A DNA stretch of 64,000 nucleotides, from assembly GCA_025963715.1 (NCBI GenBank), contig JAOQAG010000008.1, forward strand, positions 87,907-151,906. The letters are read 5' to 3'. Each line of letters starts with the position of its first letter. Position 1 is the stretch's first letter. This stretch comes from Bacteroidota bacterium (GTDB lineage: Bacteria > Bacteroidota > Bacteroidia > 2-12-FULL-35-15). Positions 19,843-61,835 of this stretch are shown one piece after another. Under the pieces are notes generated by a model. That model made no database searches. It was not told the origin of the DNA and was given only the letters and a program-made list of their open reading frames with translations. The position numbers were made by a program, and so were the translations under genes.

Positions 19843-20910
19843 ATGGATCAACCTAAACGAATATTAATTTGTCCGCTGGATTGGGGCTTAGGCCACGCCA
19901 CGCGCTGCATCCCGATCATTCGTTTATTGATACAAAAAAAAGCGGAAATTTTTATTGCTGCTGATGGCCGACCATTAGAACTGCTCAAACAGGAATTTCC
20001 ACAGCTTACTTTCATCCCGTTCAAAGGTTACGAAATCAACTATCCCCGCTCCGGTTCCATGGCGTTTAAAATGCTCTTGGCCGTTCCCGGCATTTTAAAA
20101 AAAATAAAACGCGAGCACCTCGAATTACAGCAAATAATTGACACACATAAAATTGATATAGTGATCTCGGACAATCGCTATGGCTGCTGGAATAAAAACA
20201 TAAAAAGTATTTTCATCACGCACCAGCTGATGATCAAAACACCATTTTTTGAAAAAACGGCGCATGCAAAAATTTTAAATTACATTCGAAATTATAATGA
20301 GTGCTGGATCCCGGATACTGCAGGATCAGAAAACCTTTCCGGCGACCTTTCACACAAATATGTATTACAAAAAAATACATATTTCATAGGAAATTTATCA
20401 CGGTTTAAAAAGCCGGATGCTGTAAATGATAATTTTAAATATGATGTCATGGCCATTGTTTCCGGGCCGGAACCGCAGCGGAGTATTTTTGAAAATTCAC
20501 TTTTACAGCAATTCAATACAACTGATCTTAAAACATTGTTGGTTTCCGGTTTGCCCGAAGGAAAAAAAAATCCGGAAATAAGATCAAACGTAACAATTGT
20601 ATCGCATTTAAATGCAACGGAAATGCAGGCGGCAATTTTGAATTCAAAAATTATCATCGCACGCAGCGGTTATTCTACCATTATGGATTTGGCAGCGCTT
20701 GGTAAAAAAGCAGTGTTTGTGCCTACACCCGGGCAAACAGAACAGGAATATTTAGCGGAATTATTGTTGCAGAAAAACATTTCTTATTTCCAGCAGCAAT
20801 CAGCATTTGACCTGAAGAAAGCGCTGCTAATAAGTGAAAAATTTACGGGCTTTACAGCATTGGATAATACAGGAGAATTAGAAAAGCGGATTGATTTGTT
20901 GTTGAAATAG
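19843..20910 (+). CDS. MurG-like (GT-B fold) glycosyltransferase
   Basis: A 355-residue protein. The N-terminal RILICPLDWGLGHATRCIPI contains the glycine-rich GHATR motif of GT28/MurG-type enzymes. The C-terminal half has the nucleotide-sugar region (KIIIARSGYSTIMDLAALGK, VFVPTPGQTEQEYLAELLLQ), which matches the GG.NT..E / PG..EQ..N pattern. It is related in layout to the second enzyme of this type at 37978-39030. The substrate is unknown. It is transcribed alone, divergently from trmB. Confidence 0.82.
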   Translation: MDQPKRILICPLDWGLGHATRCIPIIRLLIQKKAEIFIAADGRPLELLKQEFPQLTFIPFKGYEINYPRSGSMAFKMLLAVPGILKKIKREHLELQQIIDTHKIDIVISDNRYGCWNKNIKSIFITHQLMIKTPFFEKTAHAKILNYIRNYNECWIPDTAGSENLSGDLSHKYVLQKNTYFIGNLSRFKKPDAVNDNFKYDVMAIVSGPEPQRSIFENSLLQQFNTTDLKTLLVSGLPEGKKNPEIRSNVTIVSHLNATEMQAAILNSKIIIARSGYSTIMDLAALGKKAVFVPTPGQTEQEYLAELLLQKNISYFQQQSAFDLKKALLISEKFTGFTALDNTGELEKRIDLLLK

Positions 20911-22577: not shown

Positions 22578-23264
22578 TTAAAATTCGAATTTATAACCGA
22601 TTCCTTTAACGGTACGGATAAAATCTTCACCTAGTTTTTCGCGCAGCTTGCGGATGTGTACATCAATGGTACGGTCGCCCACCACTACTTCTCCGCCCCA
22701 TACTTTATCCAGGATCACCTCGCGGGTAAATACTTTTCCGGGTTTGGAAGCCAGCAATGCCAGCAATTCAAATTCTTTTTTAGGAAGGTTGATTTCTCTT
22801 CCATCCTGCACCACTACGTAGCGTTCGCGGTCAATTTTAATTCCGCCCATGTCCACTTTATCAGTAGATGTGCTTTCGGAATTTCCGCCACGACGCAGCA
22901 ATGCTTTGATCCTGCTGATCAGCACACGCGGCTTGATCGGTTTATTGATATAATCATCCGCCCCTACTTCAAATCCTGCGATCTGCGAATAATCCTCGCT
23001 GCGTGCCGTTAAAAATGCGATCATCACATCCTTCAGGCCCGGGATTTCGCGGATCTCGCGACAGGTTTCGATCCCGTCCATGTCGGGCATCATCACATCC
23101 AGTATAATTAAATTGGGATTTTCTTTTTTAGCGATCACTACGGCTTCCTTGCCATTATTGGCAGTAAACACATTGTATCCTTCTTTTTTAAGGTTATAGC
23201 TTAAAAATTCAAGAATATCCGGTTCGTCATCCACCAATAAAATTTTGTATTCGTTGTTGTTCAT
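22578..23264 (-). CDS. phoB: OmpR/PhoB-type response regulator
   Basis: A 228-residue regulator. The receiver domain has acidic pocket Asp12/Asp13, phospho-acceptor Asp56 (LIILDVMMPDMDG), Thr86 and Lys108. A winged-helix DNA-binding domain follows at about 128-228 (KEFELLALLASKPGKVFTRE, then GDRTIDVHIRKLREKLGEDF). It is the first gene of the phoB-phoR pair. The 11-bp-spaced TTAAC repeats at 23315-23341 in its own promoter match those ahead of porin and pst genes, so it is the likely binder of those sites and autoregulated. Confidence 0.9.
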   Translation of the reverse strand: MNNNEYKILLVDDEPDILEFLSYNLKKEGYNVFTANNGKEAVVIAKKENPNLIILDVMMPDMDGIETCREIREIPGLKDVMIAFLTARSEDYSQIAGFEVGADDYINKPIKPRVLISRIKALLRRGGNSESTSTDKVDMGGIKIDRERYVVVQDGREINLPKKEFELLALLASKPGKVFTREVILDKVWGGEVVVGDRTIDVHIRKLREKLGEDFIRTVKGIGYKFEF

Positions 23265-23422: not shown

Positions 23423-23534
23423 CGTAATGATTTTTAAGAACGGAATCAGGTGCAATCTGCCTGCTGCAATTACACACAGCAAAGGTAATGCTTTTTGAAT
23501 TAAAACGGATGAACATCGGCGGAAGCAGGCTTTA

Positions 23535-23590
23535 TTAACCTAAGATTAACTTAAAAGAAATCTTTTTTTTATACTGCCCGGCTACTTTTG
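23535..23590 (+). promoter_or_regulatory. Pho-box promoter of the VEKYY/TonB operon
   Basis: TTAAC at 23535 and again at 23546 (11 bp apart), with the third, degenerate step GAAAT at 23557. TACTTTTG at 23583-23590 is an exact TAnnTTTG -7 box, 26 bp from the third step. The start codon of the first gene lies 46 bp beyond the -7 box. Confidence 0.7.
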
Positions 23591-23635: not shown

Positions 23636-24433
23636 ATGAATATCAAAACAAAAAAATATAGTTGCGTATTTCTTTGCCTGATCTGCATCGCACTGATCAG
23701 CACGCCGCTGCGCGCGCAGGTAAAACGCCCGCTCAGCGATGCCGACAAAAGTGCGCTGGAAAGCGTGGAAGTGGAAAAATATTATACCTATACCGCTGCC
23801 GATAAAATGGACACACTCGGCGGTTGCCTTCCAAAAGGCGCTGTAACCTACCGTATTTACATCGACCTGAAACCGGGTTATTCATTACAGGCAGTGTACG
23901 GTGTATTGAACCATCCTTTATTTATCAAAACCAGCACGCTGTTTTTTAATAATACGCAATACGGGCAAGGCACCGGCGATTATATAGATCATAAAAAAAT
24001 GCTGGGTAGCACCGCCTCATTTGATTCGTTTTTAACGATGGGCGCTGCCAGCAATTCCGATATGGGCGTACCGAAAGCAGATGATAAAGACGGTTCGCTG
24101 ATCAAAGCAAATTCTTTTGCTTCCGCAGATGGTTTGATGGCAGCGAAAATAAAACCGGTTACCTATTTCGGCATCATCCCCAACTTTTTTAACACCTACA
24201 ATCCCGCAAATACATTTACCACCGATAACGGATCCTGGGCGGTATTTGGCGGTGTGACCGGCGCAACCGAAAGTAATAAGATCTTAATTGCGCAGCTGAC
24301 CACCGACGGCGTGCTTTCATACGAGCTGAACATACAGGTGGGAACACCTAACGGAGGCAGCATTAATTACGTGGCAAAAAATCCACAGGAGCAGGAAATT
24401 AAATTTGACGCACTCACAAAAGCAATAAACTAA
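23636..24433 (+). CDS. Secreted VEKYY-domain protein A
   Basis: A 265-residue secreted protein with a signal peptide (MNIKTKKYSCVFLC onward, cleavage near LRAQ). The mature part is one domain of about 230 residues, shared with the proteins at 24468, 28675 and 34544: LESVEVEKYYTYTAADK, VTYRIYIDLKPGYSLQAVYG, FFNN, FDSFLTMGAAS, DDKDGS and a terminal QLTTDGVLSYELNIQVGTPN. Unlike its paralogues it has no sorting domain, so it probably stays periplasmic or uses another route. It is the first gene behind a strong Pho-type promoter. I do not recognise the domain; the function is unknown. Confidence 0.8.
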   Translation: MNIKTKKYSCVFLCLICIALISTPLRAQVKRPLSDADKSALESVEVEKYYTYTAADKMDTLGGCLPKGAVTYRIYIDLKPGYSLQAVYGVLNHPLFIKTSTLFFNNTQYGQGTGDYIDHKKMLGSTASFDSFLTMGAASNSDMGVPKADDKDGSLIKANSFASADGLMAAKIKPVTYFGIIPNFFNTYNPANTFTTDNGSWAVFGGVTGATESNKILIAQLTTDGVLSYELNIQVGTPNGGSINYVAKNPQEQEIKFDALTKAIN

Positions 24434-24467
24434 AAACGAACATAAAACAATTTAAACATAAATAATC

Positions 24468-25556
24468 ATGGGAAAAAATACTCTTAAAAATGTAATTGCA
24501 GGCGCACTGCTTACAACACTTGGAAGCGCAACATTCGCACAAGGACTTGAATCGGTGATCGTAGAAAAATATTATGTGGCTGATGCGGCAGATGCAGCAG
24601 GCAGTGTAGGAACATTAGCCGTTGGATCGGTTACGTACCGCGTATATGTGGATCTGTTGCCGGGATATAAATTTGAAGCGCTGTATGGGGTACCGGGACA
24701 CACGATGACGATCAATACCACCACTACGTTTTTTAACAACGAAGATCGTGGCGCAACAACTCCATCTTACACAAAAGCACAAGCTGCCGGAAATACGGTA
24801 ATGCTTGATTCATGGTTTTCTGCAGGTGCTGCAGCAAGCAACCAAATGGGAATTTTAAAATCGGAAGATGATGGTGCTGCCAACCAAACGAATGCTGACG
24901 GAATTTTACAAAATACAGATCCGCAGGCAGGAATTCCATTAACCACACAAGATGGTTTTATTGCCGGAACACCACAATCGGTAACGTTTGTAGGATTAAG
25001 CACAACCGACCTGAATGTATTTGATGCTACCAGCGCCGTAGGAAATTCATTCTCCACCAGCAACGGTTCCATCGCTTGTTTGGTTGGTTCTACAGGACCT
25101 GTGCCTGCTACCAACAAAGTATTGGTTGGACAATTTACAACAGACGGTACTTTCACATTTGCATTGAATATCCAGATCGGAACACCATCCGGCGGAACCG
25201 AAAATTATGTAGCTACAAGCCCTGCAAGCGGCGAGATCTCTATTCCTTCACTGATCTATAACAGCTCGGTTGGAGTTTCGGTTGCTGATATTAAATCAAA
25301 CGAAAGCAATTTTATTTTGTATCCAAACCCTGCTACTGATGTTGTGAAAATGGACATTACTTCTACCAACAAGATCACCAACAACAGCTATAAAATTGTG
25401 AACTTGTTAGGCGATGTGGTAATGCAAAAAACGATCGGCGAAGTTTCGGGAACAACTACAGAAGTGATTGATTTGAGTTCTTTATCAACCGGGTTGTATT
25501 TTGTTGAATTGAACCTGAACGGAAAGATCACGACCAAAAAGATCATCAAAAAATAA
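24468..25556 (+). CDS. Secreted VEKYY-domain protein B with T9SS sorting domain
   Basis: A 362-residue protein with signal peptide cleavage near TFAQ. The VEKYY domain spans about 25-265: GLESVIVEKYYVADAAD, SVTYRVYVDLLPGYKFEALY, FFNNEDRG, LDSWFSAGAAASNQMG, SEDDGAANQ and VLVGQFTTDGTFTFALNIQI. A type A sorting domain follows at 285-362 (NFILYPNPATDVVKMDIT ... GLYFVELNLNGK, ending KKIIKK), so it is exported by the type IX system and probably fixed to the surface. It lies 34 bp after protein A. It is closest to the paralogue at 34544. Function unknown. Confidence 0.85.
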   Translation: MGKNTLKNVIAGALLTTLGSATFAQGLESVIVEKYYVADAADAAGSVGTLAVGSVTYRVYVDLLPGYKFEALYGVPGHTMTINTTTTFFNNEDRGATTPSYTKAQAAGNTVMLDSWFSAGAAASNQMGILKSEDDGAANQTNADGILQNTDPQAGIPLTTQDGFIAGTPQSVTFVGLSTTDLNVFDATSAVGNSFSTSNGSIACLVGSTGPVPATNKVLVGQFTTDGTFTFALNIQIGTPSGGTENYVATSPASGEISIPSLIYNSSVGVSVADIKSNESNFILYPNPATDVVKMDITSTNKITNNSYKIVNLLGDVVMQKTIGEVSGTTTEVIDLSSLSTGLYFVELNLNGKITTKKIIKK

Positions 25557-25571
25557 ATTAAATAATTCTCA

Positions 25572-25604
25572 TTTTCCTCCGGTGTAAAACCGGGGGAAAA
25601 TTTT
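25572..25604 (+). terminator. Intercistronic hairpin before the TonB receptor
   Basis: TTTTCCTCCGGT pairs with ACCGGGGGAAAA (one mismatch) around GTAAA, followed by TTTT. It lies inside an apparent operon, 15 bp before the next start codon, so it may be a partial terminator or an RNA-processing or stability hairpin that sets different levels of the two proteins. Confidence 0.55.
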
Positions 25605-25618
25605 AGAGAAGCAACACT

Positions 25619-28600
25619 ATGAAAAAAACACTTTTACTACTCCTTCTACTTGTTATCGCTTCGGGCGCTCTTTTTTCGCAAGGAACGATCAGGGGAAAAG
25701 TAACCGATAAAAATGGCGAAACACTTATCGGTGTTACGATCGTTCTTAAATCCAACCCGGGCATGGGCGCCAGTACCGACCTGGATGGAAATTACACATT
25801 GAAAATAAAAGATTCGACGGAGCAAACGCTCGTGATCTCTTACATCAGCTTTCAAACCATTGAACAAAAAGTATTTCCAAAAAACGGCGAGGTCATCATT
25901 AAAAATTTTACGCTGCAGGATGCATCACAGGAATTAGGAGTGGTGGAAGTAGAAGCAAAAGCTGTGAAAGCAGCCGGAAGCTACATGGAAAACATCAAAA
26001 AAAATTCGGCTGTTACCTTTGATTACATCTCCAACGAGAGCATGAAAAAAACAGGCGATGCCAATGTTACCGCAGCAGTTGCAAGAGTTACAGGCGTTTC
26101 CACAAACGGCGGTTTTATCACCGTAAGGGGAATTGGCGACCGTTATGTAAAAACCACGATCAACGGAAACCGCATCCCTACGCTGGATCCGTTTACCAAC
26201 AACATTAAGCTGGACATGTTCCCGGCAAGTTTGGTGGATAACGTAATTATTACAAAAACCGCAAGTCCTGACCTGCCGGGCGATTGGGCCGGTGCTTATT
26301 TATCAGTAGAAACAAAAGATTATCCGGATGCACTGAGTGTGAGTGTAGAATCCGTAGTTGGATACAACACACAATCCACATTCAAAGATGTGATCAGCTC
26401 GGAACGCAGCAATACCGACTGGCTTGGCTACGACAATACATTTCGTGAACACGATCACACGCAATTTCAATCGGCAGTAAAACATCCAAACCAATACCAG
26501 GAAATGACGGCATTGGGTTTGGGTGATTATTTCAGATCGATGGGCGTAACCGGCTGGACCGACGGGAGCAGCAGCGGCGACCTGTATTTTAAATTAGGAT
26601 TGATACAACTTGGTTTATTACCTCCTGCACAGATCAACGATCCCATCGCGGTAAACGCTGCAAAAGCAGCTTACAACAGCGGATCTTACCATTCACAGGC
26701 ATTTGCAACCATTAATGCAGGCGCTGCAAAAACCGGGCAATCATTCCCTGATAACTGGAATACTACCAAACGTAAAGCACCATTGAATTTCAGCCAAAGC
26801 TTTACCGTGGGCGATCAATTACAATTGTTTGGAAAACCACTTGGTTTTATTGCCGGTTTCCGTTATGGAACAGCAACGCAATACGACCCGAACTCTATCA
26901 AGGAAGAGCCGTATGCAGCTTCGGAGCTGATCGCAGGACATGCGGAACGCGAAGTGAGCAGGGAAATAAATACCTGGAGCGCCTTGGTAAATCTTGCTTA
27001 TAAATTAAATCCGAACAACAGCATTGCACTTTTGTTCATGCCTAATTTCAGCGGAACAAATGATGTGCGCGATGGTTACGATACCATTAAAAACACCACC
27101 ACCAAAGCGCAGTTTTATGAAGCACGCAAACAAATGGTGTATCAATATAAATCGGAACATTTTATTCCGGCGGCAAAAATGAAAGTAGAATTGAATGCTT
27201 CCTATACCAAAGGAAACAGTAATGCACCCGATTTTAAATATTTGCAATACGACGGAAACCCAAATACCAATAGCTTTGTGCTGGATCCGGGGGTGCATGA
27301 CATTGATCGTTTTTACCGTTATTTATCTGATAATTTATTTGACTCGCGGATCTCTGCAGAAATTCCGTTGGGAGATAAACCGGGATTAACGCGCAAAATA
27401 AAATTTGGCGGTGCGTATCAACACGATTATCAAAAAAGCGATCAATATCAATATTTACTGGGTAAAGGCGATTACACCACGCCATTGCCAAGCAGCGATC
27501 TCAATTCGTATTTAAGTTTGGATCAATTTCAGATCTCAAATGGCATTAACAGTAGCGGCGTTCCATACAGCACACTCAACTGGTATTACAACCTGAACAA
27601 TTTACCGACGGATCATACTTTTGGAAAAAGCAATATTTATGCAGCGTTTGTAATGGCTGATTATACTATTGTTCCGCGCTTACGCCTGACAGGCGGTGTG
27701 CGCATGGAGCATACGGAAATGTTTACGGACGTGGATAAATTTGATTCACTCGGGTTAAGCGATACCGATCCGCGCCGCTTTTATGAAGAAGGAACATTGC
27801 CTGCAACACCGGGCCGTTTGAATAAAACCAACTTTTTGCCAAGCGCTACGCTGATCTATAAATTAGTAAATAAGGAAGAAAGTCCGACCAACATCCGCCT
27901 TGGTTACAGCCAAACCATTGCACGCCCAAGCTTACGCGAGATCTCGAACGTAACCAATTTTGATTACGAGCTGCAGGCAAATGTTACCGGTAACCCGGAT
28001 TTGAAAATGGTGGAGATTAAAAATTACGACCTGCGCATCGAATCTTATTTTAAGAACAAGGACAATGTTTCGGTGAGTGTATTTTACAAAGATTTTAAAA
28101 ACCACATCGAGCTGGAGCGCGCCGATAATTATTACTGGCAAAACGTTGATAAATCGCATGTAGCCGGGATTGAGATCGAAGGAAGAAAAGGAATCATCAA
28201 AGGATTGGAAGCACGCGCTAACGTAACGCTGGTAAAATCACAAACCTCGTATGTGCGCACGCGTCAGGAAATTATCGGATCAACGGTAACAACTTATTAC
28301 CTGGATACGGTAAAACGCCAGATGTTCGGGCAAGCGCCATACATCATCAACGCGATTTTATCTTATACGTCGGATTCGCTGGGATTGACTGCTACAGCAA
28401 GCTACAACATCCAGGGGCCGCGTTTGGTAATTGGTTCCAACAACAAATCCATCCCGGATGTGTATGAATTGCCAAGGCATTTGCTGGATTTTAAAGTGAC
28501 AAAAACATTCGGTAAACATTTCAGCGTAAGCTTCACGATCAAGGATCTTTTAAATTCGAAAATTACACGCGCTTATAAATTTGATGATGGTTATAATGTG

Positions 28601-28660
28601 ATCTACGATCAATACAGATGGGGAACAAATTATTTACTGGGCGTTTTGTATAAGCTCTAA
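25619..28660 (+). CDS. TonB-dependent outer-membrane receptor
   Basis: A 1013-residue protein with signal peptide (cleavage near LFSQ), then a CarboxypepD-like domain at about 22-105 (GTIRGKVTDKNGETLIGVTI, DLDGNYTL), a plug at about 110-225 (MKKTGDANVTAAVARVTGVS, GGFITVRGIGDRYVKTTING) and a 22-strand barrel ending YRWGTNYLLGVLYKL. Such receptors bring ligands across the outer membrane using TonB energy. No SusD gene accompanies it; the secreted VEKYY proteins on both sides take that position. With a Pho-type promoter upstream, a phosphorus-containing ligand is plausible. Confidence 0.93.
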   Translation: MKKTLLLLLLLVIASGALFSQGTIRGKVTDKNGETLIGVTIVLKSNPGMGASTDLDGNYTLKIKDSTEQTLVISYISFQTIEQKVFPKNGEVIIKNFTLQDASQELGVVEVEAKAVKAAGSYMENIKKNSAVTFDYISNESMKKTGDANVTAAVARVTGVSTNGGFITVRGIGDRYVKTTINGNRIPTLDPFTNNIKLDMFPASLVDNVIITKTASPDLPGDWAGAYLSVETKDYPDALSVSVESVVGYNTQSTFKDVISSERSNTDWLGYDNTFREHDHTQFQSAVKHPNQYQEMTALGLGDYFRSMGVTGWTDGSSSGDLYFKLGLIQLGLLPPAQINDPIAVNAAKAAYNSGSYHSQAFATINAGAAKTGQSFPDNWNTTKRKAPLNFSQSFTVGDQLQLFGKPLGFIAGFRYGTATQYDPNSIKEEPYAASELIAGHAEREVSREINTWSALVNLAYKLNPNNSIALLFMPNFSGTNDVRDGYDTIKNTTTKAQFYEARKQMVYQYKSEHFIPAAKMKVELNASYTKGNSNAPDFKYLQYDGNPNTNSFVLDPGVHDIDRFYRYLSDNLFDSRISAEIPLGDKPGLTRKIKFGGAYQHDYQKSDQYQYLLGKGDYTTPLPSSDLNSYLSLDQFQISNGINSSGVPYSTLNWYYNLNNLPTDHTFGKSNIYAAFVMADYTIVPRLRLTGGVRMEHTEMFTDVDKFDSLGLSDTDPRRFYEEGTLPATPGRLNKTNFLPSATLIYKLVNKEESPTNIRLGYSQTIARPSLREISNVTNFDYELQANVTGNPDLKMVEIKNYDLRIESYFKNKDNVSVSVFYKDFKNHIELERADNYYWQNVDKSHVAGIEIEGRKGIIKGLEARANVTLVKSQTSYVRTRQEIIGSTVTTYYLDTVKRQMFGQAPYIINAILSYTSDSLGLTATASYNIQGPRLVIGSNNKSIPDVYELPRHLLDFKVTKTFGKHFSVSFTIKDLLNSKITRAYKFDDGYNVIYDQYRWGTNYLLGVLYKL

Positions 28661-28674
28661 ACAACACATTGAAA

Positions 28675-30012
28675 ATGAAAAAATTAATTGCAATTCTTTT
28701 CCCCATACTCTTACTGCAGGTCGCTGCCAAGGCACAGATCCAGCATGTGATCGTAGAAAAATATTATGTATCAGATTCGCTGGATAATACCGATACGATT
28801 GACGGTGCAGCAAGAGCCTTACCGGTAGGATCAAAAACATACCGCGTGTATGTGCAGCTGGATGCAGGTTACCGCCTGAAGAAAATGTACGGCACTGCCA
28901 ATCATCCATTAAAAATAAAAAGCACGGCTAACTTTTTTAATAACATCGACCGGCCAACCGCTTATTTCGGTTACTTAATAAACAAAGCATGGTTTTCCGG
29001 CAACCCAACATTGGCATTGGATAGCTGGCTGACATTGGGATTATGCGCTACCAATTACAACGGCGTTTTAAAAACGGATGACACCGATGGTTCAGTGATC
29101 CTGCCTTCATGGGGCGGAACAGCAAGCGTACCGGGTGGAATATTGAGAAACAATGATACGGCTGCGGGAATCCCAATTACTACCGAAGACGGAATGAAGC
29201 CTAAAACAGGCACGTTCACGACCTGGATCAACAATGGTTTTATTGATTCGCCAACAGGCACAGAAGATACCACCGTGTTTGGTTCAGTCAATACGGGATC
29301 ACAATTTATCAGCACCACTGCATTTTTACAGCAAAACAGCGGCGTGATCGGCGATTCGCTTACCGGCGAAAAAGTACTGGTAGCACAATTAACAACTACC
29401 GGCGAAATTTCGTTTGAGCTGAATTTACAATTGATCACACCAGGCGGTGCGAGCATGAACATTGTTCCCGGCAACAACTCACTGCCAACTACCGGCGACA
29501 CTACTGTGAACGGAATGCTGAAATACCCGCCGGATGCACCGGTTTGCGGATGTAAAGATCCCAACTATTTAGAATACAATGCCGCTTACGCCTGCTCTGA
29601 TCCATTTTCCTGCATTCACCTGGTTGTTTTGGGATGTATGGATACACTGGCTTGCAACTATGATCCGGCTGTGAATTTTCACATTCAATCACTTTGCTGC
29701 TATCCCGGCAATTGCAATAACCGCGACATTGCGCTGGTATGCCCTGGCATTGCTACCGAAGCGGGCGTACAATTATATCCGAACCCTGCAACAGAAGGGA
29801 TCACCATCCAGTTTTCTGCAGGCGAATACATTGAAACAAAATATGCCATTTTCGATTCGTACGGAACGGTTGTGCTACAAAGGGACCTGGGAATGCGTAC
29901 AGGAAACGTAGTGGAAAACGTAGACATTTCCAACCTGCAAACCGGTTTGTATCTACTGAAAGTATTCAAAGGAAATAACAACGTGGAAAGTAAAACATTC
30001 ATGAAACAATAG
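28675..30012 (+). CDS. Secreted VEKYY-domain protein C with Cys-rich insert and T9SS sorting domain
   Basis: A 445-residue protein. The start is the ATG at 28675; a TTG two codons upstream is less likely. Signal peptide cleavage is near AKAQ. The VEKYY domain covers about 20-275 (HVIVEKYYVSDSLDNTD, KTYRVYVQLDAGYRLKKMYG, FFNNIDRP, LDSWLTLGLCA). Then comes a Cys-rich stretch at about 285-355 with GCMDTLACNYDPAVNFH, the GC.D..ACNYD-type repeat common in secreted Bacteroidota proteins, and a sorting domain (LYPNPATEGITIQFS ... TGLYLLKVFKG) at the end. It begins 14 bp after the receptor stop and belongs to its operon. Confidence 0.85.
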   Translation: MKKLIAILFPILLLQVAAKAQIQHVIVEKYYVSDSLDNTDTIDGAARALPVGSKTYRVYVQLDAGYRLKKMYGTANHPLKIKSTANFFNNIDRPTAYFGYLINKAWFSGNPTLALDSWLTLGLCATNYNGVLKTDDTDGSVILPSWGGTASVPGGILRNNDTAAGIPITTEDGMKPKTGTFTTWINNGFIDSPTGTEDTTVFGSVNTGSQFISTTAFLQQNSGVIGDSLTGEKVLVAQLTTTGEISFELNLQLITPGGASMNIVPGNNSLPTTGDTTVNGMLKYPPDAPVCGCKDPNYLEYNAAYACSDPFSCIHLVVLGCMDTLACNYDPAVNFHIQSLCCYPGNCNNRDIALVCPGIATEAGVQLYPNPATEGITIQFSAGEYIETKYAIFDSYGTVVLQRDLGMRTGNVVENVDISNLQTGLYLLKVFKGNNNVESKTFMKQ

Positions 30013-30055
30013 TTTTACCACTAAGGACACGAAGAACACTAAGAAGAATTAAAAA

Positions 30056-30799
30056 ATGAAGCATAAAAACAAACTAATTATACTGATCGGTATATTTTTT
30101 ATACTCTTCAACAGCTCTTGTAAAAAAACGGAGGAAACTGCACCTGTTATTGAAACAGGAACGGTAACCGATAATGACGGTAATACTTACCGCACGGTAA
30201 AAATTGGCAATCAGTGGTGGATGGCGGAAGACCTGCGCACTACCAAATACCGCGATAGTAGCTTTATTTCACTGGTACCTGCACCGCCTGCAGATACTAC
30301 ATGGAAACATTATACCACCGGCGCTTTTTGTAACAACACAGATGCTGGTGGACATATTATCGGGCGTTTTTATAATTATTACACAATTGTTGATTCGCGT
30401 GGAATAGCACCTGCAGGCTGGCACATTCCAAGTGATGCGGAATGGAAAACGCTGGAAGAGCATTTGGGAATGAGCGCAAACGATGCGGATAATACCGGTT
30501 GGAGAGGAACACATGAAGGCGAGAAATTAAAAGTGGTAAAAGGAACGGTAAACGGCTGGTCGGATTACGGCAACGTATGGACCACCAACGAAAGCGGTTT
30601 TAGCGCACTGGCTGGCGGATGCCGCATGTTCAACGGTAGCTGGGGAACACCCGGACAATACAGTACCGGCTTCTGGTGGACGATCTCCACAAATGGAAGC
30701 AATGCATGGTACCGTTACCTGGATTACAAAAATGCAAACGTATTCCGTTATTATGGTCTGAAAACGTATGGTTTTGGCGTGCGTTGCGTGAAGGATTGA
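30056..30799 (+). CDS. FISUMP-domain lipoprotein
   Basis: A 247-residue lipoprotein with lipobox in IFFILFNSSCKK (Cys22). From about residue 35 the fibrobacter-succinogenes major-paralogous (FISUMP) domain fills the protein: VTDNDGNTYRTVKIGNQWWM, EDLRTTKYRD, GWHIPSDAEWKTLEEHLG, GFSALAGGCR and the terminal YGFGVRCVKD. These are lectin-fold-like surface lipoproteins of unknown role. It is 43 bp after protein C, with an ACCACTAAGGACACGAAGAA repeat word in the gap, so cotranscription is possible but not certain. Confidence 0.88.
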   Translation: MKHKNKLIILIGIFFILFNSSCKKTEETAPVIETGTVTDNDGNTYRTVKIGNQWWMAEDLRTTKYRDSSFISLVPAPPADTTWKHYTTGAFCNNTDAGGHIIGRFYNYYTIVDSRGIAPAGWHIPSDAEWKTLEEHLGMSANDADNTGWRGTHEGEKLKVVKGTVNGWSDYGNVWTTNESGFSALAGGCRMFNGSWGTPGQYSTGFWWTISTNGSNAWYRYLDYKNANVFRYYGLKTYGFGVRCVKD

Positions 30800-30879
30800 T
30801 TTTAGTTTTGAGTTGGTTGTTCGGAGTTTTGAGTTGCGAAACCCGGTTTAGAATTTTAGAAATTAGAGTTTATATTTTG

Positions 30880-31581
30880 ATGAAAAAAATAATTACATTT
30901 TTAGCAATTGTTTTCCCTTTCGTGATCTTCGGACAAACCGATACGATCAAACGAAAAAAGATAGAACTGGGAATTTCCTTTTCGCCGGATTATGCATACA
31001 GAATGTTGAAAGCAGACGCGGACAGTAAAGCCATCACTGATTACAGGGATACAGCCGAAGTAGCAAAATTTGGTTACACCACGGGACTGAATGCAGAATT
31101 TAAATTGAATAAAAAATGGAATGTGGAAGCCGGTATTTTATTTTCCGATAACGGCGAACGGATCAAAAAACAGTCGCTGGAAAGTGTTCCGTACGGACAA
31201 CAGGCAGTAACGTACGCTTATAATTTTCACTATTATTATTTGAACATTCCTGTAAAAGCCGATTATTTTATTGTAACCGGAAAATTGAAATTTTATATCA
31301 CAGCAGGTATTTCTGCTAATATTTTTCTGTCCGAAAATATTACTTCCATTACCGGCCTCGGCAACAGCGAATCGAAAAAAACAACAAAAGCCGATCACGG
31401 CTTTTCAAGGGTAAACCTGGGAATGCTGGCAGGATGTGGCATTCGCTACCCAATCGGCAAACGCACCGATTTACTTGTTGAACCGCTTTACAGAAGATCC
31501 CTGACGTCCATTGTTGATGCACCTGTAAAAGGATATTTATATTCGGCTGGGTTAAACATTGGTTTTTATTACAATTTATAA
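30880..31581 (+). CDS. Outer-membrane beta-barrel protein (PorT-like fold)
   Basis: A 233-residue protein; I use the ATG at 30880, which gives a clean signal peptide (MKKIITFLAIVFPFVIFGQ). The longer frame begins inside the previous gene. The mature part is a run of amphipathic strands (YTTGLNAEFKLNKKWNVEAG, YLNIPVKADYFIVTGKLKFY, GMLAGCGIRYPIGKRTDLLV) ending in SAGLNIGFYYNL with a C-terminal aromatic-rich strand, as in OMP_b-brl_2/PorT-like barrels. Role unknown. Its stop codon overlaps the next start. Confidence 0.75.
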   Translation: MKKIITFLAIVFPFVIFGQTDTIKRKKIELGISFSPDYAYRMLKADADSKAITDYRDTAEVAKFGYTTGLNAEFKLNKKWNVEAGILFSDNGERIKKQSLESVPYGQQAVTYAYNFHYYYLNIPVKADYFIVTGKLKFYITAGISANIFLSENITSITGLGNSESKKTTKADHGFSRVNLGMLAGCGIRYPIGKRTDLLVEPLYRRSLTSIVDAPVKGYLYSAGLNIGFYYNL

Positions 31582-32144
31582 TGACACGCATTTTTACAAT
31601 GAAAAAAATAATTTTCTTTTTTCTTTTTCTTTTTCCGGGTTCATTTATTTATTCGCAAACCGACCTGCTTGCAGCTTCTAACAACAAGGAAGCGCTCAAA
31701 AAAACACTGGATAGCGCCCTGATCGCGCATTATTATATTTCCAATGGAGATGCTGCAAAAATTTTAAACCAACCGGTATATTTAAAAGACAGCACGTATA
31801 AATATTCGGGCGGGATCCTGAGATTTACCTTTGATTATTTAGCAAAAAAAGTAGACAGCACATCAAAAGGCAGGGTCTTTTTCAGCTTTGAACAATACAA
31901 AGATCCGGAGATCGCGAAAGTGACCTACCAGAGTATCAAAACTGAAAACGAAAAAAGCAGCAATACCAGCACCTTAAAAAATTTGGGGGAAGATGCTTTT
32001 CTGCAAAAAGATAATCTCAACCAGCCGTTCATTATGATCCTCGATCATACTAAAATTTATAAGATCAGGGTGTTTTCAGTTACCAGTCAGCAGTCGCAGG
32101 ATGAATTAATGAATGTTGCTAAAAAGTTAGTAGCCAGCCATTAA
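31581..32144 (+). CDS. Secreted protein of unknown function
   Basis: A 187-residue protein whose ATG shares one base with the preceding TAA, suggesting translational coupling. A start at 31599 (MKKIIFFFLFLFPGS) would give an equally good signal peptide. The mature part resembles a small alpha/beta domain: DSALIAHYYISNGDAAKILN, FDYLAKKVDSTSKGRVFFSF, and a final MNVAKKLVASH helix. The pattern of a Lys-rich substrate-free fold with helix-strand alternation resembles PsbP/MOG1-like proteins, but I cannot make a firm family call. Confidence 0.65.
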   Translation: MTRIFTMKKIIFFFLFLFPGSFIYSQTDLLAASNNKEALKKTLDSALIAHYYISNGDAAKILNQPVYLKDSTYKYSGGILRFTFDYLAKKVDSTSKGRVFFSFEQYKDPEIAKVTYQSIKTENEKSSNTSTLKNLGEDAFLQKDNLNQPFIMILDHTKIYKIRVFSVTSQQSQDELMNVAKKLVASH

Positions 32145-32211
32145 TTTTTTAAGTGTTGTTGTAGGAAAATGTTATTTTTTTACAATATTCACAAACAGTA
32201 CTGTCATCCCG

Positions 32212-32283
32212 GGCTTGACCCGGGATCTCATGAATGGTAGTAGGATTCGATTGGCAGATCCCGGGTCAAGCCCGGGATGACAG
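32212..32283. repeat. GTCATCCCG-family nested inverted repeat
   Basis: Begins TGTCATCCCGGGCTTGACCC and ends AAGCCCGGGATGACA, its complement, with small palindromes in both arms. Confidence 0.8.
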
Positions 32284-32371
32284 CTTAAGAAAGTACTTCT
32301 GTTTCCATAAACAACATTGTTCTATAACATAGCTATTCGGTATAAAACTTTGTAAAAAGCTTAATATCGCT

Positions 32372-32453
32372 CGTCATTGCGAGCGATAGCGAAGCAATCT
32401 CACACCAGCACGTATTCTATTAATGAGATTGCTTCGTTCCTCGCAATGACGTT
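32372..32453. repeat. CGTCATTGCGAG-family inverted repeat, copy 1
   Basis: CGTCATTGCGAGCGATAGCG followed by AAGCAATCTCA, then about 25 bp, then TGAGATTGCTTCG and CTCGCAATGACG. It is a separate family from the GTCATCCCG repeats; the other copy is at 54179. It precedes the Pho-type promoter at 32553 in a 564-bp gap. Confidence 0.8.
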
Positions 32454-32552
32454 CTTAATTTGACATTCACAGAGTATTATCCTTCCCAACCACGCAATGT
32501 TAAATTAGCTTTAAGCCAATGCTTATTTTTTTAATGTTTCCGCCCCTTTAAC

Positions 32553-32608
32553 ATAATACACACATAATTCGCGCTTAATTATCCAATAACAGCCCCCTTC
32601 TACTTTTA
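32553..32608 (+). promoter_or_regulatory. Pho-box promoter of the beta-helix protein operon
   Basis: ATAAT at 32553, ATAAT at 32564 and TTAAT at 32575, in exact 11-bp steps. TACTTTTA at 32601 is 26 bp after the last start and one mismatch from TAnnTTTG. The leader to the ATG at 32709 is about 95 nt. Confidence 0.6.
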
Positions 32609-32708
32609 TGCCCGCTAACCTTAATTACTAAGGGAAATAATATGAGTACTACTTAACCTAACCTTTTAACAACAAGATTTAAAACTTAAAACAATTAAAA
32701 ACAAAAAC

Positions 32709-34523
32709 ATGAAAAAATTTTCACACTTAATTGCTACTGCTTTATTCGCTGTAGCGGCAATGGAAACAGGAGTGGCGCAAACGGACTTAGGTTCTTCCTG
32801 CGGCTGCCCTTCTGTATCTTCACGACCTACCGTTAACTTGTCGACACTGGCAGTGAGCGGCGGTGCTAATGATGGTAACTTATTAGCCAACACAACACTT
32901 ACCTGCGATAAATTGTGGGTACTTGACAAGAAAATCTACGTTCCAAACGGAGTAACATTAACAATCCAGCCGGGAACCGTAGTAAAAGGAATGAACACAG
33001 GTGTTCCTGCTACTGCTACTGCTTTGATCGTTTCAAGAGGTGGTAAAATTTATGCGGTAGGAACCGAAGATTGCCAGATCGTATTTACTGCACAAGCAGA
33101 TGCGATGGACGGTACTTATGCCATCCACAACGTTGGACAATGGGGTGGTTTAGTAATTGCCGGACAAGCTTCCAACAACTTAACATTGGCTAAGAACGGT
33201 CCGTTTGCAGCTGGTACCGGTGACGGTAAATTAGCTGTTGCTGACGGTTTAGGAACATTCGAAGGTTTTGCTTCTTCGGATTACCGCGATCAGTTTGGTG
33301 TAAACTTAACTACGCCGCAAGCTGGTTACTTAACTACATTTGATGACAACGATAATTCAGGGATCCTGAAATACGTTTCTGTTCGTTACGCAGGTCAGAT
33401 CCTTGCTGTAGGCGGAGAGTTGAACGGAATTTCTTTGGGTTCAGTAGGAAGAGGAACAACCATTGATCACGTGGAAGTAATTTCTGCAGCAGATGATAAC
33501 ATGGAATTTTTCGGTGGAACTGTAAACGTTAAAAATGCAGCGTTCATGTTCGGTAACGATGATATGTTCGATTGGGATGACGGATACAGCGGAAAAGTTC
33601 AAAACGTTTTCGCGATCGGTGTTTCTTCAAACGATACAACAGGTACTGTAACAGGTGCTGGTGACAACGGTTTTGAAATGGATGCAGATGATCAGCAATC
33701 AGGTAACGGTTCAGGTGTTGCAGTTGGAACAATCGGTGCAGGCGGTTACCGTTCTCACCCGGTTATTTATAATGTAACTATGATCGGAACAAACAAACGC
33801 CAGGAAAACTCGGATAACACAGGTATGGCTGCTATCCAGGCAAAAGAATTAACAGAAGGTGAAATTTACAACTCTGTATTCGCAAATTTTGCAATCGGCT
33901 TGAACTTATGGACTGGTAACAAACCGGGAGAAGGAACAAGAACAAGCACTACCAGCTCAACGGGTCAGCCTGTTTTAGATTCTTATGACAACTGGAGAAA
34001 CGATAACGGAACCCCAAGCTTAATTGTTAAAAACAACACATTCGTTGGAATGGGTGCTGGCAATGCTGGTGCTGCAACTGCAACATTAACAATGGATGTT
34101 TCTAAAATCGCAGGAAGTAACTCTTATTTCAGAAACCCTGCATCTCATGCTGCAACGGCAAGAGACACGATGCAATTTTATGTAACTGACGGAAACGTAC
34201 GTACAACAACTGTTGCGGGCTTCACACCAATCTGGGCAATGGACGGATCAACAAACGCAGTAAGCACACAATACGATGCTACTCCGGATCCTTCTTTATC
34301 TACTACAAGTGTTGCTCCTGCTGATGGTTTCTTCACACCGGAAAACTACAGAGGTGCATTTGCATCAGGATATCCATCATGGTTATCAGGATGGTCATAC
34401 GGTACTTTATTAGCTACTACAGGCGGATTAGCACCATGCCCTACGGATATTAACCGCGATGGTGTTACCAACAACGTTGACTTTTTATTACTGTTAGGTC
34501 AATTCAACCAATCTTGCCACTAA
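32709..34523 (+). CDS. Secreted beta-helix-like surface protein with dockerin-like C-terminus
   Basis: A 604-residue secreted protein (signal peptide to GVAQ). The body has repeated strand-turn blocks typical of parallel beta-helix proteins: WVLDKKIYVPNGVTLTIQPG, LKYVSVRYAGQILAVGGELN, DHVEVISAADDNMEFFGGTV and MFGNDDMFDWDDGYSGKVQN, rich in Asp. Related proteins occur beside TonB receptors in Bacteroidota. The last 28 residues (CPTDINRDGVTNNVDFLLLL, then GQFNQSC) form an EF-hand-like dockerin-type motif instead of a T9SS sorting domain. It shares the Pho-type promoter at 32553 with the next gene, 20 bp downstream. Confidence 0.8.
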   Translation: MKKFSHLIATALFAVAAMETGVAQTDLGSSCGCPSVSSRPTVNLSTLAVSGGANDGNLLANTTLTCDKLWVLDKKIYVPNGVTLTIQPGTVVKGMNTGVPATATALIVSRGGKIYAVGTEDCQIVFTAQADAMDGTYAIHNVGQWGGLVIAGQASNNLTLAKNGPFAAGTGDGKLAVADGLGTFEGFASSDYRDQFGVNLTTPQAGYLTTFDDNDNSGILKYVSVRYAGQILAVGGELNGISLGSVGRGTTIDHVEVISAADDNMEFFGGTVNVKNAAFMFGNDDMFDWDDGYSGKVQNVFAIGVSSNDTTGTVTGAGDNGFEMDADDQQSGNGSGVAVGTIGAGGYRSHPVIYNVTMIGTNKRQENSDNTGMAAIQAKELTEGEIYNSVFANFAIGLNLWTGNKPGEGTRTSTTSSTGQPVLDSYDNWRNDNGTPSLIVKNNTFVGMGAGNAGAATATLTMDVSKIAGSNSYFRNPASHAATARDTMQFYVTDGNVRTTTVAGFTPIWAMDGSTNAVSTQYDATPDPSLSTTSVAPADGFFTPENYRGAFASGYPSWLSGWSYGTLLATTGGLAPCPTDINRDGVTNNVDFLLLLGQFNQSCH

Positions 34524-34543
34524 TCTTTATAAAAAAATAAAAG

Positions 34544-36082
34544 ATGAAAAAAAATAAAAATCTAATGCTGAGCTTGCTCCTTGCCTTCACAGGCGGGGTA
34601 AGCTTTGCACAGAACGGGTTGGAAAGCGTAATAGTTGAAAAATACTACGTATCCAATGCCGCTGATGCAACCGGCAGTATCGGCGCATTGCCTGCAGGCT
34701 CTGTTACATACAGGGTATATGCAGACATGCTACCCGGATATAATTTCCAGGCACTGTACGGTGTTTCGGGACACACATTATTGATCAACACCACTACTTC
34801 ATTTTTTAATAATGAAGACAGAGGTAGCACCAGCCCTAATTTTGCAGCAATGTATCTGAACGACAACTCTGTTGCGATCGACTCATGGTTCTCCGTAGGC
34901 GGCGCTGCTAACGGACAAATGGGCGTTCCTAAATCGGAAGATGACGGAGCTGCAAACCAGATCACCGGAAATACCATGTTATTGAATACCAGCCCCACCG
35001 CAGGTATTCCATTGGGTACGCAAGACGGGATCATGGCAGGAAGCCCTGTATCTGTAACCTTTGTAGGATTATCCAATACCGACCTGGAAGTATTTAATGC
35101 AACCAGCAATGCTGGAAATTCATTCAGCACTGCTAACGGTTCTGTGGCTGCTTTAGGCGGCGCTGTTGGACCTACAGTAACCAACAAAGTATTGGTTGGC
35201 CAGTTTACAACAGATGGCAGCTTACATTTTGAATTGAACATCCAGATCGGGACACCATCCGGAGGAACTCAAAATTATGTGGCAATGAATCCTGTTGGCG
35301 CTGAAATCAGCATCCCAAGCCTTATTTACACATCTGCACCGGCATTGGCTGCAGCTACTGTACAATATTGTTCAGGTAGCACAGCATCGCCATTGAGCGC
35401 AACACCGGCTGCAGGCTGTACATTAAACTGGTACACCAGCATGACAGGTACTGCAAGTGCAACGGCTCCAACACCATCTACAGCAACGGCTGGCACTACT
35501 ACTTATTATGTGAGCCAAACCAACGCAATGGGCGACACAAGCGTTCAGGCACCGGTTACTGTAATCGTGAATACCACGCCTACAGCAGCGGGAAGCGTTG
35601 TTTCAACTGTTGGAAGCGTAGTAACATTCTCTAACACATCCACAGGTGCAAGCACGTATGCATGGGATTTCGGCGATGGTAATAACTCTACCGCAACAAG
35701 CCCTGTTTATACATACGCTGCAAATGGTAACTATACGGTTACATTAGTTGCTATCAATGGATCTTGTACGGATACAACTACATTAACAACCGATATCACT
35801 ACCGGAATTAATGAGAACCAGGCAAACCAAAATATTTCATTGTATCCTAACCCGGCAACTGAAAACGTTACATTAACGGCTACTATATCAAAAGCATCTG
35901 ATATTATAGTAACCATTTATGATGTAACCGGCAAAGTGATCGCGACTCCGTTAAACGAGAAAGCGAATGCAGGAACAGTAACTTACAAATTAAATGTTTC
36001 TGATATCCCTGCCGGATTGTATTTTGCGTCGATCAAAACAAATGATGCAACAAAAACAATTCGTTTTGTGATCAGTAAATAA
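34544..36082 (+). CDS. Secreted VEKYY-domain protein D with PKD and T9SS sorting domains
   Basis: A 512-residue protein. Signal peptide to SFAQ; VEKYY domain at about 25-270, very close to protein B (GLESVIVEKYYVSNAADATG, SVTYRVYADMLPGYNFQALY, FFNNEDRG, SEDDGAANQ). An Ig-like segment follows at about 270-345, then a PKD domain at about 345-425 (VTFSNTSTGASTYAWDFGDG) and a type A sorting domain (ISLYPNPATENVTLTATISK ... IPAGLYFASIKT). It follows the beta-helix gene by 20 bp and ends at a strong terminator, so the two form one operon. It is probably cell-surface anchored; the binding target is unknown. Confidence 0.87.
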   Translation: MKKNKNLMLSLLLAFTGGVSFAQNGLESVIVEKYYVSNAADATGSIGALPAGSVTYRVYADMLPGYNFQALYGVSGHTLLINTTTSFFNNEDRGSTSPNFAAMYLNDNSVAIDSWFSVGGAANGQMGVPKSEDDGAANQITGNTMLLNTSPTAGIPLGTQDGIMAGSPVSVTFVGLSNTDLEVFNATSNAGNSFSTANGSVAALGGAVGPTVTNKVLVGQFTTDGSLHFELNIQIGTPSGGTQNYVAMNPVGAEISIPSLIYTSAPALAAATVQYCSGSTASPLSATPAAGCTLNWYTSMTGTASATAPTPSTATAGTTTYYVSQTNAMGDTSVQAPVTVIVNTTPTAAGSVVSTVGSVVTFSNTSTGASTYAWDFGDGNNSTATSPVYTYAANGNYTVTLVAINGSCTDTTTLTTDITTGINENQANQNISLYPNPATENVTLTATISKASDIIVTIYDVTGKVIATPLNEKANAGTVTYKLNVSDIPAGLYFASIKTNDATKTIRFVISK

Positions 36083-37132: not shown

Positions 37133-37981
37133 ATGCTCTTTAAAAGGAAAGTTCAGTTAGCAGTGATCTCAGATGTCCACCTCGGAACATTCGGATGCCA
37201 GGCCAAAGAACTTTTGCAATACCTTAACAGCATCGATCCCGAGATCCTAGTGCTGAATGGTGACATCATCGACATCTGGCAATTCTCCAAACGTTACTGG
37301 CCTGCGGCACACATGATGGTGGTGAATCACCTGATCAATTTAATTGCAGGCGGAACCAGGATCTATTACATTACCGGCAACCACGATGAAATGCTCCGCA
37401 AATTTACGGGATTCAACATTTCTAATTTTTACATTACCAATAAGCTTGTGTTAACAATCGATAAAAAGAAAGCCTGGATCTTTCACGGCGATGTGTTTGA
37501 TGTAACCATGAAACACTCCAAATGGCTGGCAAAGCTGGGCGCTATCGGTTACGATGCACTCATCCTGATCAACAGCGCTTTTAACTGGTATTTGAAAAAA
37601 CGCGGAAAAGAAAAATATTCATTCTCCAAAAAAGTAAAAGACAGTGTAAAAAGTGCTGTAAAATTCATCAACGATTTTGAAAGCATTGCGGCCGAGATCG
37701 GCATTAACAATGGCTATGATTATGTGGTATGCGGACACATCCACCAACCGGTGATCAAGGAAATTAAAACAGAAAAAGGATCCATTCAATATCTTAATTC
37801 CGGCGATTGGATCGAAAACCTGACCGCGTTGGAGTACAATTACGGAGCCTGGGAAATATACAAATACAATGAAGATGCACTGGCAAAATCCATTGAGCTG
37901 GATTTCAGCACCAGTGTTTCCAAAAAAAGCGATGAGCTGTTCCAGGAGCTCGTCTGCGAATTCAAATTAAAAGCGTCATGA
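37133..37981 (+). CDS. LpxH-like metallophosphoesterase
   Basis: A 282-residue calcineurin-fold phosphatase with all metal-site motifs: Asp14 and His16 (VISDVHLGTF), Asp44 (LNGDIIDIW), Asn83-His84 (ITGNHDEM), His118 (FHGDVFD), and His202/His204 (CGHIHQPV). The order and the DIW...TGNHD pattern match UDP-2,3-diacylglucosamine diphosphatases of lipid A synthesis, although Bacteroidota have several paralogues and the true substrate is uncertain. It heads an operon with a glycosyltransferase (ATGA overlap) and a GH1 enzyme, which suggests a glycolipid or envelope-glycan role. Confidence 0.85.
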   Translation: MLFKRKVQLAVISDVHLGTFGCQAKELLQYLNSIDPEILVLNGDIIDIWQFSKRYWPAAHMMVVNHLINLIAGGTRIYYITGNHDEMLRKFTGFNISNFYITNKLVLTIDKKKAWIFHGDVFDVTMKHSKWLAKLGAIGYDALILINSAFNWYLKKRGKEKYSFSKKVKDSVKSAVKFINDFESIAAEIGINNGYDYVVCGHIHQPVIKEIKTEKGSIQYLNSGDWIENLTALEYNYGAWEIYKYNEDALAKSIELDFSTSVSKKSDELFQELVCEFKLKAS

Positions 37982-39030
37982 AAATATTATACGCAGTACA
38001 GGGCACAGGAAACGGGCACATTACAAGAGCGATGGCCATTGTACCGGTTTTAAAAAAATACGCTTCAGTGGATGTACTCATCAGCGGTTTTTCCTACAAC
38101 CTAGATCTGCCTTTTAAAGTAAAATACGAATTCAAAGGAATGAGCTTTTGTTTTGGTAAAAAAGGCGGCATTGATTATTTGCAGACCTTTAAAAAAAATA
38201 AGCTCAACCGTTTCCGGAAAGAAATAAAACAGCTCGATTTAAAAGAATACGATTTTGTGATCAGCGATTTTGAACCGATCTCGTGCTGGGCGGCCATCAA
38301 ACAAAAAAAGCTCTGTATCGGGCTTAGCAACCAGGCTTCCATCTTTACCGAAAATGTACCGCTGCCAAAATCATTTGATGTGGCTGGTAAATTTGTATTA
38401 AAATATTATGCACCCTGCAGCATTAATTTCGGGATCCATTTTCAGCAATACAACCCGCAGATCTTTACACCCATCGTTAGTGAAGATGTACGGAAATTAA
38501 AAACCGTGAACGATGGTTTTTATTTGGTGTATTTACCGGCTTACGATCCCGAAAAAATAAAATCCATATTCAAACAATTTGAAAAAGAAAAATTTGTAGT
38601 ATTCTCTGATGTAAAAGAAAAAATACAAAAAAAGAACATCACCATTTATCCGCTCGGTCGTGCCGAATTTATCAAACAACTTTCCAGTTGTTACGGAGTA
38701 ATAACGGCAGCAGGATTTTCCACCACTTCCGAAGCGCTTTACCTGAAAAAGAAATTACTCGTGATTCCGCAAAAAAATCAATTCGAGCAAAAGTGCAATG
38801 CGCTTGCGTTAAAAAAAATGGGGATCACAATTGTAAAAAAATTAAAAAATAAATTCATTCCGGAAATAGAAAGCTGGATGAACGAACCAAAAACAATCAA
38901 TGTAAATTACGAAGACAATGCGGAGCTGATCGTGCAAAACATTATTAAAGCGGGCATTAACGAACGCAAAGTAAAAAGCAGCTACGTGCCGCCATTGGAT
39001 TACAGCATCATTAATTCCGCAAAAATTTAG
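37978..39030 (+). CDS. MurG-like (GT-B fold) glycosyltransferase
   Basis: A 350-residue protein starting MKILYAVQGTGNGHITRAMA, whose GNGHITR glycine-rich loop is that of GT28-type enzymes. The C-terminal nucleotide-sugar site reads CYGVITAAGFSTTSEALYLK, then KKLLVIPQKNQFEQKCNALA, equivalent to the GG..T..E and P....EQ..NA motifs. The start codon overlaps the preceding stop (ATGA). It resembles the enzyme at 19843 in layout but the two are well diverged. A lipid-linked acceptor is plausible given the LpxH-like neighbour; this is not proven. Confidence 0.83.
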   Translation: MKILYAVQGTGNGHITRAMAIVPVLKKYASVDVLISGFSYNLDLPFKVKYEFKGMSFCFGKKGGIDYLQTFKKNKLNRFRKEIKQLDLKEYDFVISDFEPISCWAAIKQKKLCIGLSNQASIFTENVPLPKSFDVAGKFVLKYYAPCSINFGIHFQQYNPQIFTPIVSEDVRKLKTVNDGFYLVYLPAYDPEKIKSIFKQFEKEKFVVFSDVKEKIQKKNITIYPLGRAEFIKQLSSCYGVITAAGFSTTSEALYLKKKLLVIPQKNQFEQKCNALALKKMGITIVKKLKNKFIPEIESWMNEPKTINVNYEDNAELIVQNIIKAGINERKVKSSYVPPLDYSIINSAKI

Positions 39031-60535: not shown

Positions 60536-60627
60536 TACTTACAAAAAAGCAATTATTAATCATTAACGCATTTAACAAAACAAAGATCAGGTAATAACAT
60601 TTTACCATCTTTGAAAAAATAAAACAC

Positions 60628-61745: not shown

Positions 61746-61746
61746 T

Positions 61747-61802: not shown

Positions 61803-61835
61803 CTGCCATAAAAATCAATTATAAAAAGAAATAAC

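Follow-up and report, generated by a model that had tools for sequence, protein, structure and literature searches.

Here we analyzed a 64,000-nucleotide stretch of DNA from a Bacteroidota bacterium (assembly GCA_025963715.1, contig JAOQAG010000008.1, positions 87,907 to 151,906; the whole stretch is called the window), which encodes a TonB-dependent receptor, a parallel beta-helix protein and four proteins with a common domain designated VEKYY. Our main finding is that VEKYY is a real, conserved and previously unnamed protein family. Comparison of genes and their order further suggests that some Bacteroidota of lakes and other environments have remodelled a known receptor/beta-helix pair for phosphate scavenging into a larger cassette that encodes this domain several times, and the VEKYY proteins appear to stand in for the anchor of the beta-helix protein. 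The features concerned are as follows (T9SS, type IX secretion system).

23636-24433 (+): VEK-A; ATG start, signal peptide and one VEKYY domain, with which the protein ends; no sorting domain
24468-25556 (+): VEK-B; VEKYY domain at 24546-25250, then a T9SS type A sorting domain
25619-28660 (+): TonB-dependent receptor; CarboxypepD_reg-like N-terminus; PF00593 E 1.9e-34, TIGR01782 E 1.4e-56
28675-30012 (+): VEK-C; VEKYY domain, Cys-rich repeat, T9SS type A sorting domain; its place 3' of the receptor is conserved
32709-34523 (+): parallel beta-helix protein; signal peptide, no recognisable sorting domain or lipobox
34446-34484 (+): dockerin-type calcium loop of the beta-helix protein, DINRDGVTNNVDF; C-terminal, residues 580-592, from two alignments
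34544-36082 (+): VEK-D; VEKYY domain, Ig_7, PKD and T9SS type A sorting domain; starts 20 bp after the beta-helix gene

A sequence-only reading of the window had attributed to the four VEK proteins one common domain with a set of recurrent motifs, assignable to no family, and T9SS sorting domains to three of them. Both claims hold: the open reading frames (ORFs) are real, the sorting domains are those of VEK-B, VEK-C and VEK-D, and the domain, about 235 residues long, can be aligned from end to end with that of VEK-B at 41-69% identity (69% for the best pair in the window, 41-45% for the remaining ones against the same reference). Residues E7, Y10, D16, R32, D88, D108, D136, G137, Q196, T198 and G201 (domain numbering) are invariant over 114 relatives. 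Neither the window copies nor these relatives are matched by any Pfam or NCBIfam model, and no PDB chain matches the VEKYY profile. A longer, TTG-started ORF of VEK-A opens inside the promoter, and the ATG at 23636 was taken; the VEK-A position is filled in most loci by such a short form, devoid of the C-terminal sorting domain. No enzyme domain was found in the window or related VEK proteins, which have Ig, PKD and Big_7 modules instead, and on this ground the idea that VEKYY is itself an enzyme was rejected. In some longer VEK-D orthologues (for example, L016:14444-17875 and L059:6859-10380), VEKYY is accompanied by Big_7 repeats and by a dockerin-like segment inside the protein; given this segment, such VEK-D proteins might bind one another.

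The case for an exchange of anchors comes from the beta-helix protein. Its model (predicted local distance difference test, pLDDT, 80) shows the parallel beta-helix fold of lyases and epimerases, with VIA Z scores of about 16-20 to alginate/pectin lyases and epimerases, which bears out the fold proposed earlier; the protein has no recognisable sorting domain. An F-hand loop, DxNxDGxxxxxD, ends 46 of 46 unique intact beta-helix proteins linked to VEKYY, versus 0 of 32 unlinked ones. The Por_Secre_tail sorting domain has the opposite distribution (0/38 linked, 27/32 unlinked), and lipoboxes are visible in others. It is because loop and sorting domain mirror each other according to VEKYY linkage that we favor a swap of anchor. 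The tail always lies at the very C-terminus and is flanked by conserved residues, and a search of the window's genome with a tail profile retrieved the beta-helix protein as sole match at the sensitivity used. One genome (G330) possesses both kinds of beta-helix protein; the loop is confined to the one linked to VEKYY.

To assess the distribution of the family, 84,980 species genomes were scanned for VEKYY, which gave 169 stretches; the best 80 of these yielded 65 distinct loci. Their records are titled Bacteroidota or uncultured bacteria, and many are from lakes. An even draw over the phylum found VEKYY in 3 of 296 genomes, and within the window's own genus, counting the window, it is present in 13 of 36. 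Ten matches were found in genome G045, where eight full-length copies form a single cluster; the same genome contains a 2366-residue reading frame with at least two VEKYY domains (L075). A plasmid location was considered and rejected, plasmid matches being at chance level only. Gene order is kept almost always: VEK-A, VEK-B, TonB receptor, VEK-C, FISUMP protein, in some cassettes an outer-membrane and a small protein, beta-helix protein, VEK-D; the last lies 3' of the beta-helix gene in 42 loci. The remaining members in the window are:

30056-30799 (+): FISUMP-domain protein, probable lipoprotein; PF09603 E 6.3e-42; lipobox pattern in 33/44 orthologues
30880-31581 (+): outer-membrane beta-barrel protein; PF13568 E 2.5e-13; start codon uncertain (the ORF opens at 30676); in a subset of cassettes
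31581-32144 (+): small exported protein; no Pfam or NCBIfam match; accompanies the outer-membrane protein gene in some cassettes

Between the two transcription units, which begin at VEK-A and at the beta-helix gene, lie two repeat elements (sites 32201-32283 and 32373-32400). One is a perfect inverted repeat of 28 bp; the other, GTCATTGCGAGCGATAGCGAAGCAATCT, is distinct from it and has a further copy in the window at 54239-54266.

The receptor is as constant a companion as its neighbors. Gene neighborhoods confirmed the expected co-occurrence of VEKYY homologues with a TonB receptor, and the receptors of VEKYY cassettes form a single clade (tree support 100). As had been noticed, the receptor at 25619 has no SusD partner: the cluster genes give zero matches to SusD families. 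The proposal built on this, that VEKYY proteins act in place of SusD, was not upheld. The best full-length model of the receptor is TonB-Xanth-Caul (TIGR01782) and the SusC model TIGR04056 covers residues 23-162 only; moreover, relatives of the receptor are paired with a beta-helix protein and have no SusD. A replacement of SusD was rejected on these two counts. The window thus resembles SusCD/PusCD systems in combining TonB-type outer-membrane transport with surface accessory proteins, but differs from them in having no SusD and a receptor that, taken over its length, falls outside the SusC/RagA subfamily.

The receptor/beta-helix pair itself is far more widespread than the cassette. Beta-helix relatives occur in 100 of 148 genomes, and they adjoin a TonB receptor, without SusD, in 13 of 14 sampled Bacteroidota genomes and in 20/20 of a second sample. 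Same-genus genomes that have no VEKYY display at the phoBR site a glycosyltransferase, PhoR, PhoB and a divergently oriented receptor with its beta-helix gene. The window's genome has the VEKYY version only; as the simple version is absent from it, the cassette occupies that phoBR site. In G330, the simple pair adjoins phoBR and the VEKYY cassette lies elsewhere in the genome. A similar operon has been described in Flavobacterium johnsoniae, where the Pi (inorganic phosphate)-induced PUSIV (phoBR operon Fjoh_0541-0549) comprises glycosyltransferase Fjoh_0541, PhoR, PhoB, a TonB receptor and the polygalacturonase-fold protein FII, with no SusD listed (PMC8115612). The simple same-genus loci match this arrangement, the comparison with Fjoh_0545/0546 being one of gene order. 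The window likewise has a receptor and a beta-helix gene by phoBR; it departs from PUSIV in that its beta-helix protein has neither lipid nor T9SS anchor, whereas FII is a lipoprotein, and VEKYY proteins are not described there (PMC8115612). A more distant parallel is ElpS (CC0170) of Caulobacter crescentus, a phosphate-starvation surface lipoprotein with type II secretion system-dependent release whose gene lies next to that of the TonB receptor CC0171 and which has reported relatives in Shewanella and Bacteroides (PMC2996285). The likeness, judged by arrangement, is that of a surface-protein gene adjoining a TonB receptor gene; the difference is again a beta-helix protein that ends in a calcium loop and has no lipid or T9SS signal.

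The window's phoBR genes lie immediately upstream of the cassette, and the regulatory features are:

19843-20910 (+): glycosyltransferase (Pfam Glyco_tran_28_C / Glyco_trans_1_3); conserved phoR-phoB neighbor, with a homologue next to phoBR in the same-genus loci L126, L127 and L130
21481-22521 (-): PhoR-like histidine kinase; Pfam HisKA/HATPase_c; 500-558 bits to PhoR orthologues adjoining PhoB in same-genus genomes
22578-23264 (-): PhoB response regulator; TIGR02154 E 4.5e-69 and NF053854 E 7e-66, best matches that are below the curated cut-offs
23532-23551 (+): Pho box TTATTAACCTAAGATTAACT; two TTAAC half sites 11 bp apart, 84 bp 5' of the VEK-A ATG
23583-23590 (+): -7 promoter element TACTTTTG of TAnnTTTG type, first unit; read from the sequence
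32601-32608 (+): -7-like element TACTTTTA, second unit; from motif discovery, resembling TAnnTTTG

TAnnTTTG is the -7 promoter consensus of Bacteroidota, and a spacing of 11 bp is the period of PhoB repeats. Motif discovery on VEK-A upstream regions returned TAATTAATATAAACTTAAT; TTAA-N7-TTAA, which has this period, is found in 14 of 24 non-redundant VEK-A upstream regions versus 1.2 expected, with a peak at exactly 11 bp. The peak is absent 5' of the VEK-C, FISUMP or receptor genes inside cassettes. A matrix built from other species only, with the window's site excluded, gives the Pho box of the first unit 13.7 bits (local shuffle P 0.01), and an exact TTAAY-N6-TTAAY lies within it at 23535. 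The window's genome was scanned over the window, the pst region and two control regions. Besides the window's site, the matrix recovers the promoters of oprP, the second pstS and pstC, as well as a four-half-site array 5' of the PhoU-like/pitA operon; it finds zero sites in the two control regions. A second pst operon (contig C8) and a PstS-like gene (C25) have no Pho box of at least 11 bits, and no PhoX was found in the window's genome. In same-genus genomes, the matrix marks the region 5' of the receptor in 12/12 simple phoBR loci. The first unit very probably belongs to the PHO regulon, because one and the same matrix marks its promoter, pst-type promoters and same-genus receptor promoters.

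Pho-type promoters had been claimed for both units, and only the first retains one. Upstream of the second unit, the best site scores 7.5 bits and is not significant (shuffle P 0.43), with three weak WTAAT words phased at 11 bp. Across VEKYY loci, 6 of 42 beta-helix upstream regions reach a Pho P of 0.05 where about 2 are expected, so that some of them may have a Pho box.

Taken with these observations, a role of the cassette in phosphorus acquisition is supported by its analogy with the Pi-induced PUSIV (PMC8115612). Our preferred account, to which we give nearly an even chance, is that the cassette serves PhoB-controlled phosphorus scavenging at the outer membrane, that its beta-helix protein has lost its anchor, and that VEKYY is a non-catalytic, cohesin-like docking module for the beta-helix tail. 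The ancestral state would be a TonB receptor with a beta-helix surface protein, of the PUSIV kind and resembling CC0171/ElpS; in one lineage, the latter would have dropped its T9SS sorting domain or lipid and acquired the C-terminal calcium loop as VEKYY proteins arose next to it. On phosphate starvation, PhoB would turn the cassette on. The receptor would take in a phosphorus-containing ligand, perhaps some organic phosphorus compound or a phosphate-bearing glycan, which the beta-helix protein, judging by its fold and relatives, may bind or process at the surface. VEK-B, VEK-C and VEK-D would be exported and anchored by the T9SS and display their VEKYY domains, some on Ig/PKD stalks; these domains would grip the beta-helix protein by its calcium-loop tail beside the receptor. 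VEK-A has no sorting domain; it may act as a bridge, or as a competitor that is soluble or periplasmic. As for the passage of the beta-helix protein across the outer membrane, riding with a VEKYY partner through the T9SS is an attractive option. We infer the docking, this carriage and the nature of the substrate. The fuller version, in which VEKYY is a new cohesin-like adaptor, T9SS-anchored scaffolds bind the dockerin-like tail in a 'phosphosome', and non-covalent docking both replaces the direct anchor and may carry cargo devoid of a T9SS signal, is conceivable but rather doubtful.

Cellulosomal cohesin-dockerin pairs are a known parallel to such docking. In both, one partner has an F-hand loop at its C-terminus, and anchored proteins encoded in the same locus carry beta-sandwich modules. 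Classical dockerins have two calcium loops, in loop-helix repeats. The beta-helix tail has one loop and no PF00404 match in the window, and 2 of 38 relatives match that family (best E 0.0045). The AlphaFold model of the VEK-B domain is of high confidence (pLDDT 96.8, predicted template modelling score 0.93) and consists mainly of beta strands with long loops. Nothing significant was retrieved with it, either by Foldseek, where cohesin matches have E 0.5 or worse, or from the PDB and viral fold libraries. By VIA-align, cohesins are the commonest family among the weak matches; many score Z 3.4-4.8, which is below the informative range and, by the tool's yardstick, possibly reflects just a common arrangement. 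Yeast Als adhesins score as high (top Z 5.2), and the cohesin likeness is accordingly weak (Z <5). No member of the VEKYY alignment is matched by the cohesin family PF00963, and no cohesin was found in the window's genome. The setting, a Gram-negative T9SS, also differs from that of cellulosomes, and the interaction of VEKYY with the tail is here putative.

Several further points weigh for or against the preferred account. Against it, tail and VEKYY probably have a single joint origin, so that 46/46 does not represent 46 independent events. In its favor, tail distance follows VEK-B distance when receptor and helix are controlled (partial r 0.37, P 0.006, partial Mantel, one of six tests); against it, the partial Mantel is null for VEK-C and VEK-D, and the putative tail-VEK coevolution signal, which comes from VEK-B alone of three, is weak. 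The surface location of VEK-A and of the beta-helix protein is putative, because both are devoid of a T9SS signal. Finally, a clear phoB neighbor of the cassette is seen in the window, L070 and L049 only; the phoB-like genes next to L108, L045 and L061 do not reach E 1e-50 with the PhoB models and were left out of this count.

Three other explanations have to be set against the docking account. The VEKYY proteins could be substrate-binding surface proteins, analogous to SusD/PusD or to surface glycan-binding proteins, that catch a phosphorus compound for the receptor, the beta-helix tail being unrelated. Their constant association with one receptor clade, the several paralogues per locus with no enzyme domain, and the invariant charged residues E7, R32, D88, D108 and D136, which could line a site, are all in keeping with such a role. 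It would leave unexplained the exact coincidence of anchor loss and loop gain with VEKYY, and the receptor is not SusC-like and has relatives that work without SusD or VEKYY; we regard it as unlikely, though worth serious consideration. Alternatively, the tail might be a self-contained calcium-binding signal for retention or export, that is, a new C-terminal sorting signal, with VEKYY proteins as structural surface adhesins of the same Pho-controlled operon. The strictly terminal position and conserved flanks of the tail would suit this, as would the Als-type adhesins at the top of the weak fold matches and the stalks of Ig, PKD or SprB repeats on VEKYY proteins. A general signal should, however, be found on other proteins, and the tail profile matches the beta-helix protein alone in the genome; the tie of tail to VEKYY is also left unexplained, which makes this explanation improbable.

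Lastly, the cassette may not be primarily for phosphorus, being a general receptor/adhesin system that lies beside phoBR by chance. The scarcity of clear phoB neighbors fits, and 3 of 5 other same-genus cassettes have no significant Pho box at their first gene. In other species, most non-redundant loci nevertheless have Pho-type repeats in their promoter, the same matrix marks pst/oprP promoters, and the simple version at the same site has the arrangement of the Pi-induced PUSIV (PMC8115612); this explanation is, in our view, quite improbable.

The surroundings of the cassette fit phosphorus stress. An OprP-like porin, two PstS, PstC, PstA, PstB and PhoU, then a PhoU-like protein and PitA, which together make up a complete phosphate uptake region, are encoded at 59204-63000 of the window and G000:C16:147111-157206 (L089), with Pho boxes 5' of oprP, pstC and the phoU-like/pitA unit. 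At 37133-39030, a calcineurin-like metallophosphoesterase gene is followed by a glycosyltransferase gene, a couple that may correspond to PlcP/Agt, the pair that replaces phospholipids under phosphorus stress; similar phosphoesterases are found near VEKYY cassettes L015, L021, L028, L034 and L040. A second OmpR-family response regulator (49495-50178, -), which is not PhoB by NCBIfam at E 1e-50, has a Pho-like box of 16.8 bits 47 bp 5' of its start. The region 40903-47199 encodes a 2098-residue T9SS protein with a lamin-tail domain. Its 2702-residue relative at L069:136-8244 adjoins a VEKYY cassette and carries a calcineurin-like phosphoesterase domain, which suggests a family of surface phosphoesterases.

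Pi-starved Bacteroidota make large amounts of TonB receptors and beta-helix surface proteins. The cassette amounts to a natural experiment on such a pair: the beta-helix protein has seemingly exchanged one mode of attachment for another, which points to a partner. Two further products of the analysis are a new domain family that can be registered and a matrix for finding Pho boxes in Bacteroidota. If docking is true, it would be a cohesin/dockerin-like assembly put to use for phosphorus instead of cellulose, and non-covalent T9SS cargo would become a possibility to consider.

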